This document shows, one piece after another, positions 350 to 14,488 of a stretch of DNA of 56,040 nucleotides. The stretch is taken from positions 1 to 56,040 of the forward strand of contig JAFXZT010000146.1 of assembly GCA_017541145.1 (NCBI GenBank), written 5' to 3'. This DNA comes from Bacteroidales bacterium (GTDB taxonomy: Bacteria > Bacteroidota > Bacteroidia > Bacteroidales > UBA3824). The position numbers and the translations under genes are program-made. Below the pieces are notes generated by a model. The model saw nothing but the letters and a program-made list of their open reading frames with translations. It made no database searches and was not told where the DNA came from. The first letter of the stretch is position 1, and each line of letters opens with the position of its first letter.

Positions 350-955
350 TTATTCAATTCCTTTTGCAATAATGTCGTTCATAATTTTTTCCAATTCGGC
401 ATCGGATTTGCCATAAAGTTCTTCTTCCTTGTAAAACTTGGTCAGCATTGTCGCAAAAACTTTACCACCGCTTACAAATACAAAATCATAATAACCGGGC
501 GTACATTCTTCTGGATGCAAATAAAACGAACCCCAGTGCCAGTTATCATCTTGTTCGGGATCTTTATGTATTTCGCAATACTGCGCAAAACCGGGAAGTT
601 CGTCGCTAAGTTCGTTTTTTAAATAAAAACTCTGGTCATTCTTGTGCTGAAAAACCCAAACAACAAATCCTCCGGAGTTTTCAGTCTGAGGATAAAATTC
701 CACCCACTCGTTGAGTTCAAAAATAAAGCGGATTTTTTCGGTGGAATACGGATAGGTGTTGATGCCTTTTCCTTCTTCTTGATTGCCTGCACGGTTACCA
801 AAAAGTCTGAGACCTTTCAAAACAGGCTTTTCACCGTCTTTGAGGTTTACAAAATAGAGTTTTCCGGCTTTCATAGTGTCTTTTTCCACCTGCGCAGAAA
901 CATTTCCGGCAAACAACATCACCACCGCTATAATAGTTAATATCAGTCTTTTCAT
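350..955 (-). CDS. Small secreted protein of unknown function
   Basis: This 201-residue protein begins with MKRLILTIIAVVMLFAGNVSA followed by Q, a typical type I signal peptide with a Ser-x-Ala cleavage site, so it is probably periplasmic or secreted. The ATG at 955 was chosen over an in-frame one at 982 because the signal peptide starts there. The mature part is acidic and rich in Trp, Tyr and Phe (residues about 85-170), suggesting a beta-sandwich, and ends in a charged helix. No family is recognised. It is monocistronic, flanked by a palindromic element downstream and a divergent gene upstream. Confidence 0.7.
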   Translation of the reverse strand: MKRLILTIIAVVMLFAGNVSAQVEKDTMKAGKLYFVNLKDGEKPVLKGLRLFGNRAGNQEEGKGINTYPYSTEKIRFIFELNEWVEFYPQTENSGGFVVWVFQHKNDQSFYLKNELSDELPGFAQYCEIHKDPEQDDNWHWGSFYLHPEECTPGYYDFVFVSGGKVFATMLTKFYKEEELYGKSDAELEKIMNDIIAKGIE

Positions 956-10216: not shown

Positions 10217-10900
10217 ATGGAAATCCTTTACGAAGACAATCACTTAATAATAGTATCCAAAACAGTAAACGAAATTGTACAAGGCGACAAAACCGGCGAT
10301 AAAACACTTATCGACACCGTAAAAGCCTATATCAAAGAGAAATACAACAAACCGGGCGAAGTATTTTTGGGATTGACACACCGTTTGGACCGTCCGACTT
10401 CCGGAATCGTGATTTTCGCTAAAACAAGCAAAGCACTTTCAAGAATGAACGAGATGTTCAGAAACGGCGATGTTCACAAAACGTATTGGGCAATCACCGG
10501 AAAATGTCCCGACTCCGACGAAGCAACTTTGGAAAACTTTTTGCAAAAGAACGAAAAACAAAATAAAAGTTATGTTACAAAAACAGAATCCAAAGAGGCA
10601 AAAAAGGCAATCTTAAAATACAAAGTAATAGCGAAATCCGACAGATATTACTTATTGGAAATCAATCTTTTAACAGGTCGTCACCACCAAATACGCTGTC
10701 AACTTGCACATATCGGTTGCCCTGTGAAAGGCGATTTGAAATACGGCTATCCGAGATCAAATTCAGACGGCGGATTGTCGCTTCACGCCCGCAAAGTGCA
10801 ATTTATACACCCTGTCAGCAAAAAAGAAATTAAAATTGTTGCGCCCGTTCCAAACGACAAACTTTGGAAATTCTTTGAAGAAAACGCTGTAACAGACTAA
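10217..10900 (+). CDS. RluA-family pseudouridine synthase
   Basis: This 227-residue protein isomerises uridine to pseudouridine in rRNA or tRNA. The catalytic Asp58 lies in the family motif 'THRLDRPTSG', with the later 'LTGRHHQIR' motif that contacts the flipped uridine. There is no N-terminal S4 domain: it starts directly in the catalytic fold, as in RluA, RluC-short or TruC-like members, so the exact target base cannot be named. It stands alone between the tex terminator and the minus-strand RNA units, with its own TAATTTTG promoter. The hairpin beginning 28 bases after its stop is shared with the convergent RNA unit. Confidence 0.9.
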   Translation: MEILYEDNHLIIVSKTVNEIVQGDKTGDKTLIDTVKAYIKEKYNKPGEVFLGLTHRLDRPTSGIVIFAKTSKALSRMNEMFRNGDVHKTYWAITGKCPDSDEATLENFLQKNEKQNKSYVTKTESKEAKKAILKYKVIAKSDRYYLLEINLLTGRHHQIRCQLAHIGCPVKGDLKYGYPRSNSDGGLSLHARKVQFIHPVSKKEIKIVAPVPNDKLWKFFEENAVTD

Positions 10901-10920
10901 TTTTCAGAACTTATAAAAAA

Positions 10921-10952
10921 ATAAAAACCCTCAATTGAAAATCAACTGAGGG
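10921..10952 (-). terminator. Terminator of RNA unit copy 1
   Basis: On the minus strand CCCTCAGTTG pairs with CAATTGAGGG across a 5-base loop with one mismatch (10928-10952), followed by TTTTTAT. It may also end the convergent pseudouridine synthase transcript. Confidence 0.75.
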
Positions 10953-11168
10953 CTTTAAAATTGAGTTAATAAAAACAGGTCGTTAAATGTACCTTCAAAA
11001 AAACTGATTATAAAAAGACTTGCAAATGAAAAATATTTAATGTTTCATAATTAGTTAGTATAGTCTGATCGGTTGTTGAGTTAATAATTATTGTTGTTAA
11101 TATATTTGTGTTGAGTTAATATCTTCATCCTAAGTTGTTACCTATTCTTAAGATGTTGTTTTGTTTTT
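10921..11168 (-). ncRNA. Candidate small RNA, copy 1 of a triplicated family
   Basis: Inferred minus-strand transcript of about 248 nt. It starts just after a TACATTTG box and ends in an intrinsic terminator. The invariant 30-base core lies at 11004-11033 and includes TTGCAAGTCTTTTTATAATC on the transcribed strand; a conserved GAAACATT precedes it. The 5' half is AT-rich with repeated TTAACTCAA motifs. No reading frame is shared with the other copies. Downstream is only the convergent end of the pseudouridine synthase gene, so it is not the leader of another gene. Function unknown; a trans-acting RNA is the simplest reading. Confidence 0.6.
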
Positions 11169-11174
11169 ACATTA

Positions 11175-11224
11175 CAAATGTATAACGAATAATTCACACA
11201 GCATTCATTCATTTTGTTCATTTT
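11175..11224 (-). promoter_or_regulatory. Promoter and upstream direct-repeat box of RNA unit copy 1
   Basis: TACATTTG lies at 11175-11182 on the minus strand. Exactly 25 bases upstream is AAAATGAACAAAATGAA (11208-11224), two AAAATGAA repeats separated by C. There is no TTG at the usual minus-33 spacing, suggesting that an activator bound at about -37 to -53 replaces it. Confidence 0.65.
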
Positions 11225-11493
11225 GTTAATTTATTGTAACAATCTGAAATTCAATTAAATAAAACTAAAAATTATTTAATTATTTTTGATTCTGTTCATT
11301 TTTTTGACACAATTTTGCTTACGAAATACCTCTTTTTTTATACTAAATTTACAAAAACGATGAAAACAGCACGGCTTTTCTACAAAAAATCAACATCCAA
11401 AAATATATTGTAACAAAAAAAAATTAATATTTCAGTAAAAATCAACAAAAAAATTTCATATATTTACGCTCTGAAATTCAAACGGAAACAATT
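11225..11493. other. AT-rich gap with no recognised gene
   Basis: About 270 bases between the upstream box of RNA unit 1 and the small membrane protein gene. A TATATTTA at 11459-11466 is a weak minus-7 candidate for that gene. Nothing else is visible. Confidence 0.5.
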
Positions 11494-12009
11494 ATGCAAA
11501 ATAACAACAAAAGGAAAAACGAATCAAAAGCAATACGGTTAACATTAATAGCAACGAGCTTAACCTTGGGTATTATTATTTTCAAAATATTAGTACCTAA
11601 AGATAGTAACGAAAGTATTTGGATGATCTTAATAGGATTGTCGTGCATATTGAGTATATATTATTTATTGAGAATAAGTTTTTGGATTTTTGCGAACTGC
11701 GTATTTGAAGAAAAGTCAAATATAATAAAAAATCAAAATCAATCTTGCGACAATTGGCTAAAGAATTATGTTCCGCCGTTTCTGAAAAATCCAAAGCTAA
11801 TTGCTTCTAATCCAAACGATTACAATTTATATTTTAGTGAAGGTAAATACATCTTGACACTGAAATATCCCGACAACACATTCGGACATTTTGAGATAAC
11901 ACAAAAAGAAGCTCAAAAAGTTCACGAAGTATCAAAAGATATCAGAACCGACTACAGACGCTACCAATCAAGAGAAATTATTGCTGCGCCGGTTGCCTTT
12001 GCATTCTAA
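11494..12009 (+). CDS. Small two-TM membrane protein between RNA units
   Basis: This 171-residue protein has a basic N-terminus (MQNNNKRKNESKAIR), two transmembrane helices at about residues 15-35 and 42-68, and a soluble C-terminal region of about 100 residues that includes a 'YFSEGKYILTLKYPDNTFGHF' beta-type segment, over 20 residues only if counted end to end (positions about 112-132). It fits an inner-membrane protein with a cytoplasmic tail. No family is recognised. It is the only plus-strand gene in the gene-poor stretch, lying between RNA unit copies 1 and 2, which run the other way, so it cannot be their coding sequence. Whether it is functionally linked to them is unknown. Confidence 0.65.
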   Translation: MQNNNKRKNESKAIRLTLIATSLTLGIIIFKILVPKDSNESIWMILIGLSCILSIYYLLRISFWIFANCVFEEKSNIIKNQNQSCDNWLKNYVPPFLKNPKLIASNPNDYNLYFSEGKYILTLKYPDNTFGHFEITQKEAQKVHEVSKDIRTDYRRYQSREIIAAPVAFAF

Positions 12010-12103
12010 ACTATCTTTTTTTTTAACATCTGCTAACCTCCCAAACGCAAGCTTAACTTGTGAAAAAAAATTTGAATTTCGTATTTCAATTACAAACCTC
12101 ATA

Positions 12104-12140
12104 AAAAATAAAAACCTCAGAATCAACTGACTCTGAGGTT
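12104..12140 (-). terminator. Terminator of RNA unit copy 2
   Basis: On the minus strand AACCTCAGA pairs perfectly with TCTGAGGTT around a 10-base loop (12113-12140), followed by a T-rich tail TTTATTTTTTAT. It lies about 100 bases past the membrane protein gene and could serve both strands. Confidence 0.75.
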
Positions 12141-12357
12141 TCGGTCTCTAGTTTGATAAAACGGTTGAAATTTGCATCTTCTAAAAAAACTGATTATAAA
12201 AAGACTTGCAAATGAAAAAAAAATTTAATGTTTCTTACTTAAAAATCATAACAATAAGCTTAATTTCTTATTGACAATAGTTTGAATTAAATAGATTGCT
12301 AACACTTTCTTTCTTTGAGTTAACTTTCTCTGTTTGATTCAATGTTGTATTGTTTTT
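12104..12357 (-). ncRNA. Candidate small RNA, copy 2 of a triplicated family
   Basis: Inferred minus-strand transcript of about 250 nt from after TAGATTTG to the terminator. The invariant core is at 12190-12219 with a GAAACATT just upstream on the transcribed strand. Its length and the order of its parts match copy 1 almost exactly, while the 5' third has diverged. Downstream on its strand lies only the antisense end of the membrane protein gene, so it should be free-standing. Confidence 0.6.
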
Positions 12358-12363
12358 ACGTTA

Positions 12364-12413
12364 CAAATCTACAACAATTTTTTAATATCGGCTCTGTTCA
12401 TTTTGTTCATTTT
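12364..12413 (-). promoter_or_regulatory. Promoter and upstream direct-repeat box of RNA unit copy 2
   Basis: TAGATTTG at 12364-12371 and the identical 17-base AAAATGAACAAAATGAA box at 12397-12413, again separated by exactly 25 bases. No minus-33 TTG. Confidence 0.65.
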
Positions 12414-12634
12414 TCATTCAGTTGGTATTTGATTGATTTTAAACAAAATACAACTGTAAAAAATTTTATTTTTTTTTATTTCATTCACTAAAAAAAATAA
12501 TTATTTAACAAAATTAAACATTTGCTCAGCCGATTTTTAAAGAAAAAGTTACAAAAAAGAGGTTAAAGACCAAAATCGCATTATCGTTAGACATTTTATT
12601 ATAATCAAAAAAAACAACGGATGTACCGATATGC

Positions 12635-12670
12635 AAAAAAAAAACCTCAAGACCAAGGAATCTTGAGGTT
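12635..12670 (-). terminator. Terminator of RNA unit copy 3
   Basis: On the minus strand AACCTCAAGA pairs perfectly with TCTTGAGGTT around an 8-base loop (12643-12670), and is followed by an uninterrupted run of Ts. The strongest of the three terminators. Confidence 0.85.
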
Positions 12671-12901
12671 TCGAGTTTAATGGTTGAAAAAAAGGTTGTC
12701 AAATTCTAAAAACTGATTATAAAAAGACTTGCAAATGAAAAAAATCAATGTTTCACAATTAAAAATATTATAACAATTAAAAGCTTAATTTATAATTGGC
12801 TAATAGTTCTTCAGTTGTTATCAGAGCTAACAGATTATTTTAATTTTAAGCTGTAAGAAAATAAATTTCTTAGTTTTTACTAAGTATTTTATTCTCTTTT
12901 G
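12635..12901 (-). ncRNA. Candidate small RNA, copy 3 of a triplicated family
   Basis: Inferred minus-strand transcript of about 265 nt. The invariant core is at 12713-12742, with GAAACATT upstream of it. Near the 5' end a CTTAGTAAAAACTAAG hairpin occurs that is not seen in the other copies. An 11-codon frame starts in this copy close to the transcription start (MSKENKILSKN), but the equivalent ATG in copy 1 is followed at once by a stop and in copy 2 is ACG, so coding is unlikely. It is the first unit in transcription order. Confidence 0.6.
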
Positions 12902-12907
12902 ACATTA

Positions 12908-12957
12908 CAAATATAGGAAGCAATCTGCAAAAACTTCTCATTCATTTTGTTCATTTT
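12908..12957 (-). promoter_or_regulatory. Promoter and upstream direct-repeat box of RNA unit copy 3
   Basis: TATATTTG at 12908-12915 and the identical 17-base box AAAATGAACAAAATGAA at 12941-12957, with the same 25-base separation. Confidence 0.65.
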
Positions 12958-13081
12958 TAAAATTAATGTTAACTAACTGATTGACAGAAAAATATTTTTT
13001 CAAAAGATGTGCTTTTTTACAATAAATTAATTCTAACGAACGGAAAATTTACAAAAAATTATCAAAGTTAACAAAAAGAAA

Positions 13082-13113
13082 AGGACAGATTTTTAAAAGT
13101 AAAAATCCGTCCT
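13082..13113 (-). terminator. Intrinsic terminator of rimO
   Basis: On the minus strand AGGACGGATTTTT pairs with AAAAATCTGTCCT with one mismatch, followed by TTTTCTTTTT. It lies about 60 bases past the rimO stop. Confidence 0.75.
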
Positions 13114-13174
13114 CTCCGGGAAAAATCCCATGTATAATATATGAAAGTTGCTTTTTAAAAAAAATTTGTTGAGG

Positions 13175-14488
13175 TTATACAGGTTTTGCAAAAAGGTCAA
13201 ACTCCTGAACGTCAGTAATTTCCACGTTATAAAAATTACCGATTTCAAAATTTGGAGCATCGGAAATTTTTACTAAAACTTCGCAATCTACTTCCGGAGA
13301 ATCAAACATCGTACGACCTACCCAAAATTCGGCTTCTTGACGGTCGATTATGATTTCCATTGTTTTACCGATTTTTGCAACGTTCAATTGCAACGAAATT
13401 CGCTGCTGAATCGACATAATTCTGTCGGCACGCTCTTGTTTTACTTCTTCCGGTACGTCGTCTTTGAAATGTTCAGCGGAATATGTTCCTTCTTCTTCGG
13501 AATATTGGAACACTCCTAACCTATCGAATTTTGCTTCTTTTATAAATTCTGCAAGTTCATCAATATCTTCCTCAGTTTCGCCGGGGAAACCTACCAACAA
13601 GCTGGTTCTCAATGTAATATCCGGAACTATTTCTCTAAATTTCTTTATGAGTGCTACAGTTTCGGCTTTGGTGTGACCTCGTTTCATATCCGAAAGTATA
13701 TGGTCGGAAATATGCTGAACCGGAATATCCAAATAGTGACAAACTTTTGGATTATCTTTCATTAAATCAAGGGTTTTCAACGGGAAATTGTTCGGATAAG
13801 TATAATGCATACGAATCCAATGCACACCGTCGATTTTTGCAAGTTGTTCTACAAGTTCCGGAAGTTTGAAATCATGGTAAAGGTCTTTGCCATAATAACT
13901 TAAATCCTGAGCTATGAGATTAAACTCTTTGGTACCGTTGGAAGCTAAAAGTTTTACTTCTTCAATTATTTCTTCCATCGGACGGGAGATGTAATTTCCT
14001 CTGATATAAGGAATTGCGCAAAAAGAACATTTACGGTTGCATCCCTCGGCAATTTTGATGTATGTTGTATGTTTTGCTGTAGAAATTAGTCTGGTATGAT
14101 CGCAAGGATTATCAAAATCTTCTACGTCAAGTCTATCGAGAATATCTTTCAAAGTGTTAACCCCGAAAAATTCATCACATTCAGGAATTTCTTTTGCTAA
14201 ATCTTCTTTGTAACGTTGTGAAAGACAGCCGAAAACAAAAAGTTTTTTGATAACACCCTCAGTTTTGAGATTTGCATAATAAATAATAGTGTCGATGCTT
14301 TCTTGTTTAGCATCAAGAATGAAACCACACGTATTAATAATCACGATGTCAACATCAGATGCATACTGATCGTCGTTGTTGAAATAAACCACATCGTATT
14401 TTTGCGCGATGCGGGTAGCAAGATCTTCGGAATCTACAAGGTTTTTGCTGCATCCCAAAGTAACGATAGCAATCGTTTTTTTCTTCAT
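13175..14488 (-). CDS. rimO: RimO, ribosomal protein uS12 methylthiotransferase
   Basis: This 437-residue enzyme adds a methylthio group to the conserved Asp of ribosomal protein uS12. The UPF0004 domain has Cys13 (TLGCSKN, the RimO form), Cys54 (INTCGF) and Cys88 (FGCLSQ). The radical SAM cluster cysteines are in CNRKCSFC (150, 154, 157), with the 'RTSLLVGFPGET' region near residue 300. The last 65 residues form a TRAM domain. Length and motifs are normal. It has its own TATCTTTG promoter and a terminator. It is the third methylthiotransferase of the window, with MtaB and MiaB. Confidence 0.95.
   Translation of the reverse strand: MKKKTIAIVTLGCSKNLVDSEDLATRIAQKYDVVYFNNDDQYASDVDIVIINTCGFILDAKQESIDTIIYYANLKTEGVIKKLFVFGCLSQRYKEDLAKEIPECDEFFGVNTLKDILDRLDVEDFDNPCDHTRLISTAKHTTYIKIAEGCNRKCSFCAIPYIRGNYISRPMEEIIEEVKLLASNGTKEFNLIAQDLSYYGKDLYHDFKLPELVEQLAKIDGVHWIRMHYTYPNNFPLKTLDLMKDNPKVCHYLDIPVQHISDHILSDMKRGHTKAETVALIKKFREIVPDITLRTSLLVGFPGETEEDIDELAEFIKEAKFDRLGVFQYSEEEGTYSAEHFKDDVPEEVKQERADRIMSIQQRISLQLNVAKIGKTMEIIIDRQEAEFWVGRTMFDSPEVDCEVLVKISDAPNFEIGNFYNVEITDVQEFDLFAKPV

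Follow-up and report, generated by a model that had tools for sequence, protein, structure and literature searches.

The stretch of DNA analysed here (the window; 56,040 nucleotides) is contig 51 of G000, a Bacteroidales genome of 4.63 Mb. Between a rimO-like gene and a convergent pseudouridine-synthase gene it carries three units on the minus strand, each of which reads, from 5' to 3', as a AAATGAACAAAATGAA(T/C) box, a gap, a TAnnTTTG element, a long variable part, GAAACATT and a 30-base core, followed on the 3' side by a T-run, a short CAACC or CGACC motif and a T-tailed hairpin. The features are listed below; the RNAs are predicted from sequence alone, and their 5' ends assume a start site 5 nt after TTTG.

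13175..14488, minus strand: rimO-like gene upstream of the units (landmark; Radical_SAM, TRAM_2, UPF0004)
12940..12956, minus strand: unit 3, upstream box AAATGAACAAAATGAAT, a 9-bp direct repeat; 47 bases from ATGAACAAAATGAA to the end of TATATTTG
12908..12915, minus strand: unit 3, -7 element TATATTTG
12635..12902, minus strand: unit 3, predicted small RNA of about 268 nt
12713..12742, minus strand: unit 3, 30-base core
12641..12672, minus strand: unit 3, intrinsic terminator (-16.7 kcal/mol)
12396..12412, minus strand: unit 2, upstream box AAATGAACAAAATGAAC
12364..12371, minus strand: unit 2, -7 element TAGATTTG
12110..12358, minus strand: unit 2, predicted small RNA of about 249 nt
12190..12219, minus strand: unit 2, 30-base core
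12111..12142, minus strand: unit 2, intrinsic terminator (-19.8 kcal/mol)
11207..11223, minus strand: unit 1, upstream box AAATGAACAAAATGAAT, with a third imperfect repeat at 11216-11232
11175..11182, minus strand: unit 1, -7 element TACATTTG
10923..11169, minus strand: unit 1, predicted small RNA of about 247 nt
11004..11033, minus strand: unit 1, 30-base core
10924..10956, minus strand: unit 1, intrinsic terminator (-19.3 kcal/mol)
10217..10900, plus strand: convergent pseudouridine-synthase gene (landmark; PseudoU_synth_2)

A first-pass annotation of this DNA had described three minus-strand copies sharing box, TAnnTTTG, GAAACATT, an identical 30-base core and a terminator, with nothing following on the same strand, and on rechecking the coordinates hold and the window contains no minus-strand gene between the units and the convergent gene. 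It had overlooked the same-strand rimO gene upstream, a 171-aa ORF that separates unit 1 from unit 2 (11494-12009, plus strand; its DUF4271 match is only sub-threshold) and a fourth box-promoter on contig 35. The core is exact in the three units and has no other copy in the window (plus-strand letters searched); across G000 a 28-base version (up to 3 mismatches) occurs in these three places only, and a 23-base version at one additional place, with 3 mismatches, on contig 165. GAAACATT lies on the minus strand at 11039-11046, 12227-12234 and 12747-12754, the 17-base boxes agree to within one difference, and each unit spans 47 bases between ATGAACAAAATGAA and the TAnnTTTG end. Since TAnnTTTG alone is common in the stretch, with four more minus-strand copies, it is the box and its spacing that are telling. 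Overall identity among the units is 63-68%. Between 10850 and 13200 there are four terminator-like sites, all on the minus strand (shuffles: 0.5 +- 0.8), one for each unit and one just behind rimO.

How widely are these units kept? Searching 59 relatives with a 23-base version of the core (up to 3 mismatches) yielded matches in 11, nine of them within the genus; the surroundings of the two matches outside it contain, on reading, neither box nor terminator. With a sequence profile (R1) built from the units of eight of the ten carrier genomes (G013 and G017 not included), we detect the unit in 10 of the 18 genomes of the genus (G000, G002, G003, G004, G008, G009, G013, G015, G016 and G017). The carriers reach best scores of 44.8-58 bits, and the additional copies of G013 and G016 reach 34.3 and 19.7 bits, respectively. 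Outside the genus the profile matched 67 of 388 order genomes at E <= 0.01, with a best score of 25.7 bits, and the matches inspected (three alignments, six of eight stretches) are U-rich or, in G242, belong to that genome's own dispersed repeat. The G242 repeat (L248-L252) combines a GCACCAGTGCTATTTTAATTTGAGC-type core with TTTTTGTAATCA and is present in at least 5 places.

Within the genus, rimO stands directly before the first unit in all ten carriers, as judged by coordinates, and RimO is only 67-72% identical to the window's across 12 genomes, whereas 12 aligned units share 16 invariant core positions of 18. The far side of the units is occupied in G000 by the pseudouridine-synthase gene; G013 and G016 have this gene there too, by eye, and the rest have other sequence. 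In G007, G010 and G011 the site is empty: by eye, rimO is followed within about 10-100 bases by the pseudouridine-synthase gene, and the unit is absent. The rimO match of G007 (L072) contains one in-frame TAG. In G001, G005, G006, G012 and G014 the search found no rimO at the cut-off, and the unit site was not seen there. Unit 2 scores 166 against unit 1 of G016 and 146 and 101 against its own neighbours; this closer kinship suggests that the duplication of the units is old, in a part of the tree that is unsettled and has long branches.

Copy number (three in G000, two each in G013 and G016, one in the other carriers) and the empty sites are what we might expect if the units had arisen by tandem multiplication of a mobile element's ends or remains. 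Several observations make this explanation very improbable, however. The core occurs in G000 at one locus only, and the position behind rimO is the same in every carrier. Core and box are kept while the remainder of the unit diverges. The exact core was not found in viral contigs, unit 2 has no match among plasmids or phages, and we saw no copies with target-site duplications at unrelated loci.

The units look like genes for RNA. Box, TAnnTTTG and a terminator of its own are present in all 14 units compared, the terminator hairpins (-13.7 to -22.3 kcal/mol) differing in sequence; the predicted RNAs measure 169-316 nt, and the 5' part, from the -7 element to the core, is variable in both sequence and length (79-198 nt). 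In single-sequence folds the core is placed differently from unit to unit. Its mean unpaired probability exceeds that of the whole RNA in 6 of 14 units, so that it is predicted to be no more accessible than the remainder, a point against pairing through the core. Considering ATG frames of at least 8 codons in 13 units, we find no reading frame common to them, as the first-pass annotation had maintained: five units have no such frame, eight have some, and the sole shared frame, that of the close pair G003 and G008, runs through the terminator. One might take the leader-like promoter and terminator, together with the frames in those eight units, to mean that the units act in cis, as leaders, attenuators or short-peptide genes. 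We consider this improbable, given that no frame is common to all, that the one shared frame passes through the terminator, that each unit is closed by its terminator, and that in the window no same-strand gene precedes the convergent gene, the genes next after units 1 and 2 lying on the plus strand.

Core and units match no known Rfam family: there were no matches above the gathering threshold in the window or in 10 related loci, and a permissive scan of 10900-13170 gave sub-threshold matches only. A literature search returned no paper on these RNAs among the matches listed; box and core strings turn up in one unrelated mouse paper. The units are real and conserved and, to judge by their sequences, very probably constitute a small-RNA family.

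The box leads beyond this one locus. We searched the 18 genus genomes for ATGAACAAAATGAA followed, after a gap of 22-50, by TAnnTTTG, and obtained 30 sites in 14 genomes against 0 for a reversed control. The span from the box to the end of TAnnTTTG is 47 at nine sites and 48 at the other 21. By reading, 14 sites precede the rimO-linked RNA, 10 another RNA-like stretch, four a cupin gene and two other sequence, which places 24 of the 30 before RNA-like units of three families. Five of the RNA-like stretches lie before a polyprenyl-synthetase gene (identified by Pfam in G000 and by eye elsewhere), and the U-rich core of this RNA is kept in four of them and has diverged in the copy on contig 35 of G000. 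Five more, which carry a second invariant U-rich core, lie before a gene that we take to be permease-like. The cupin genes, directly behind their box-promoters (Cupin_2, 7.8e-18 for one), presumably resemble KdgF.

Both box-promoters before other sequence are in G009, one (contig 177, L065) immediately ahead of a small ORF (about 54 codons), the other (contig 90, L051) before a long A-rich stretch with TTGATACATAACAA-type repeats. The fourth box-promoter of G000 (contig 35; L022, 1501-1890) precedes an RNA-like stretch that contains GAAACAT and ends in what resembles a terminator hairpin, and that lacks the rimO-linked core; this stretch holds no plus-strand ORF of at least 40 codons, and relatives carry at this locus a different sister RNA, the core of which has been lost in G000. 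Outside the genus the box-promoter was found in 5 of 292 order genomes. Three of these are the sampled members of one other genus, all of which have it; the remaining two are isolated cases, one with a different spacing and probably a chance match. In the other genus (G144, G027 and G242; L066, L067 and L068) the box-promoter stands before a conserved, Pfam-negative ORF of about 60 aa, which lies near a glycogen-debranching-type gene.

Because the box, a 9-bp direct repeat, lies upstream of the promoter, we treat it as a candidate activator site. Cur, considered as the activator, has a proposed site that is a palindrome, wwwTATGTTnTAnAACATAwww (from the excerpted text of PMC6989115 and PMC3878776); by eye against this consensus, the direct-repeat box is unlike it, and Cur was set aside. 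Because RNA-like units stand behind the box-promoter sites, the rimO-linked RNA would belong to a small-RNA regulon. As a family it is new, as a kind of RNA ordinary; what is unusual is that one box-promoter serves three unrelated RNA-like families.

What might such RNAs do? Our preferred reading, to which we assign a probability of roughly 0.55, is that the units are paralogous, activator-driven genes for trans-acting small RNAs of about 250 nt, whose U-rich core most likely pairs with translation starts and lowers translation. Each unit would be expressed from its own promoter, with a standard Bacteroidota -7 element, and end at its own intrinsic terminator. An activator would probably bind the direct-repeat box at its fixed distance from the -7 element, and the same box-promoter would serve two further small-RNA families in the genus; as it is common to three RNA families, the RNAs would be an output of one regulator. 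The active part would be the U-rich core (AAGUCUUUUUAUAAUCAG), most likely base-pairing with A-rich translation-initiation regions, of which AUGAAAAGACU appears to be the best-fitting type; pairing would lower translation, and multiple copies would raise the dose. The sequences themselves show the build of the units, their conservation, the lack of a shared reading frame and the common box-promoter; from these we infer transcription, activator, pairing, targets and the sign of the effect alike. Pairing with starts is suggested by the combination of invariant U-rich cores and A-rich leaders in the same organisms, and a common partner reached via the core would be the natural reading of core conservation.

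Complements close to perfect do not abound: there are 261 against 325 for the reversed control (18-nt core, up to 3 mismatches, 18 genomes, units included; table sums). The earlier reading of the units as duplicated small regulatory RNAs is partly supported. It stands as far as it concerns apparently non-coding, terminated units with a conserved core; the differing specificities that it proposed for the variable 5' parts would be a putative further property. A 17/18 complement lies 118 bases before a candidate gene in G000 (L117, 993-1010) that we assume to be rnfB; among 11 other leaders, the best ungapped alignment has 6-7 mismatches in six, and five have no match within 7, so the complement is not kept and we dropped this target.

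Pairing of a looser kind can be assessed at translation starts. We compared the core with regions from -35 to +20 of 449 genes in G002, 324 in G000 and 130 in G016, taking as start the first ATG in any ORF with 100 codons or more, with genes drawn from sampled stretches only. The 18-base core is complementary to AUGAAAAGACUU, one G-U pair included; that it faces the G of AUG with U, not C, speaks against the pairing. Its top-10 mean was matched or beaten by 21 (G002), 26 (G000) and 30 (G016) of 400 shuffles; in a run of 150 shuffles, 3, 8 and 13 were as good for the top 10, against 71, 66 and 115 in the coding control, where there is no excess. Longer cores gave 12, 42 and 10 of 150 in the same order of genomes, poorer than the 18-nt core in G002 and G000; in G000 the coding control outdid the starts (9 versus 42 of 150). 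For cores of about 24-26 nt and dinucleotide shuffles the figures were 1/60 in G002 and 12-17/60 in G000. In G002 the core of the second RNA family was equalled by 27 of 150 shuffles for the top 10 and by 9 for the top 30.

By a crude hydrophobicity rule, 13, 13 and 10 of the top 20 starts in G002, G000 and G016 belong to secreted-type proteins, with shuffles as high in 0, 0 and 16 of 400, a bias that is partly present in the coding control, too (9 and 7 of 150 in G002 and G016). Among the genes with pairing-type starts are GH95 and GDSL genes in G002 and a GH115 gene in G008. A pairing-type start is also found at a window ORF (353-955, minus strand; 201 aa, no Pfam family), in common with its relative in G016.

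G010, which has neither box nor unit, tempers these results. Its start pairing is as strong or stronger (5/400), and the mean-energy difference is still low (8/400, versus 0, 1 and 11 in G002, G000 and G016); the secreted-protein bias is absent from its top 20 (5 genes; 184/400 as high). G010 is an imperfect control, being richer in G+C (0.455 versus 0.36-0.41). That it pairs equally well means that start pairing may be a general property of starts, and the core-start idea stays hypothetical. Support for the pairing is weak, the core doing modestly better than its shuffles and equally well in a genome that lacks the regulon.

The main rival, which we nevertheless consider unlikely, is that the RNAs are sponges, the U-rich cores titrating an RNA-binding protein such as a single RRM protein. 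Three families with unrelated U-rich cores would then serve the same protein, which fits the observation that all three have long U-rich cores without a common sequence; it would also sit well with the lack of excess mRNA complements, and one RRM protein is indeed encoded in 16 of 18 genus genomes, including all ten unit carriers. In G000 this protein (L270, 877-1704, minus strand) has a long low-complexity tail rich in N, G, Y and Q. Against titration, the core is kept far beyond U-richness, at 16 of 18 invariant positions, and repeated binding hairpins are not seen in single-sequence folds. Nor does the distribution of the protein follow that of the box: the RRM gene is also present in G010 and G011, two genomes that lack the box, and the search did not find it in G012, a genome with a box-promoter RNA.

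We retain base-pairing small RNAs as our preferred reading. A bolder extension would make small RNAs the regulator's main output: the box would drive a cupin enzyme and, from three conserved loci, three unrelated families of small RNAs, and the cores would jointly silence secreted glycan-degrading proteins through AUGAAAAGACU starts. This we offer tentatively, as a doubtful proposition.

Some elements of the system have parallels. FopS RNAs of Bacteroides thetaiotaomicron are, in the excerpted accounts, about 65-70 nt long, present in 12-15 copies per genome at scattered loci, bile-responsive and bound by RbpB (PMC11697453, PMC7366714); they bind near start codons, and their structure was deposited in Rfam (PMC11697453), of which the release searched here may or may not hold it. 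As far as these accounts go, our units resemble FopS and GibS in being paralogous small RNAs of one Bacteroidales genome with a Bacteroidota -7 promoter, a seed-like conserved segment and an intrinsic terminator, and, by analogy, in their proposed action at translation starts. They differ from FopS in predicted length (169-316 nt), in number and location (one to three per genome, at a single locus behind rimO) and in having a box at a fixed distance from the -7 element. MasB, described in the excerpted text of PMC10994844 as a single small RNA of about 100 nt in the Cur regulon of B. thetaiotaomicron, is likewise a small RNA of a gut Bacteroidales and is driven by a DNA-bound activator, which for our units is putative. 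Sibling or multicopy small RNAs (Qrr, LhrC, the Cia-dependent sRNAs and NgncR_162/163, as named in the excerpted PMC11697453 and among the search matches listed) also comprise several similar RNAs per genome that share a segment and a regulator, the latter putative in our case; unlike them, as far as described there, three families without a common core sequence here use one box-promoter.

The literature on small RNAs of Bacteroidales that we found concerns, among the matches listed, Bacteroides only. The units described here add a small-RNA family outside Bacteroides, with defined promoters, a series of orthologs, genomes in which the site is empty, and two sister families that share the box; on this footing one can search for both the activator and the targets. 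Should the cores indeed act at the starts of genes for secreted proteins, the idea of RNA control over glycan use, developed for FopS, would extend to other gut Bacteroidales.
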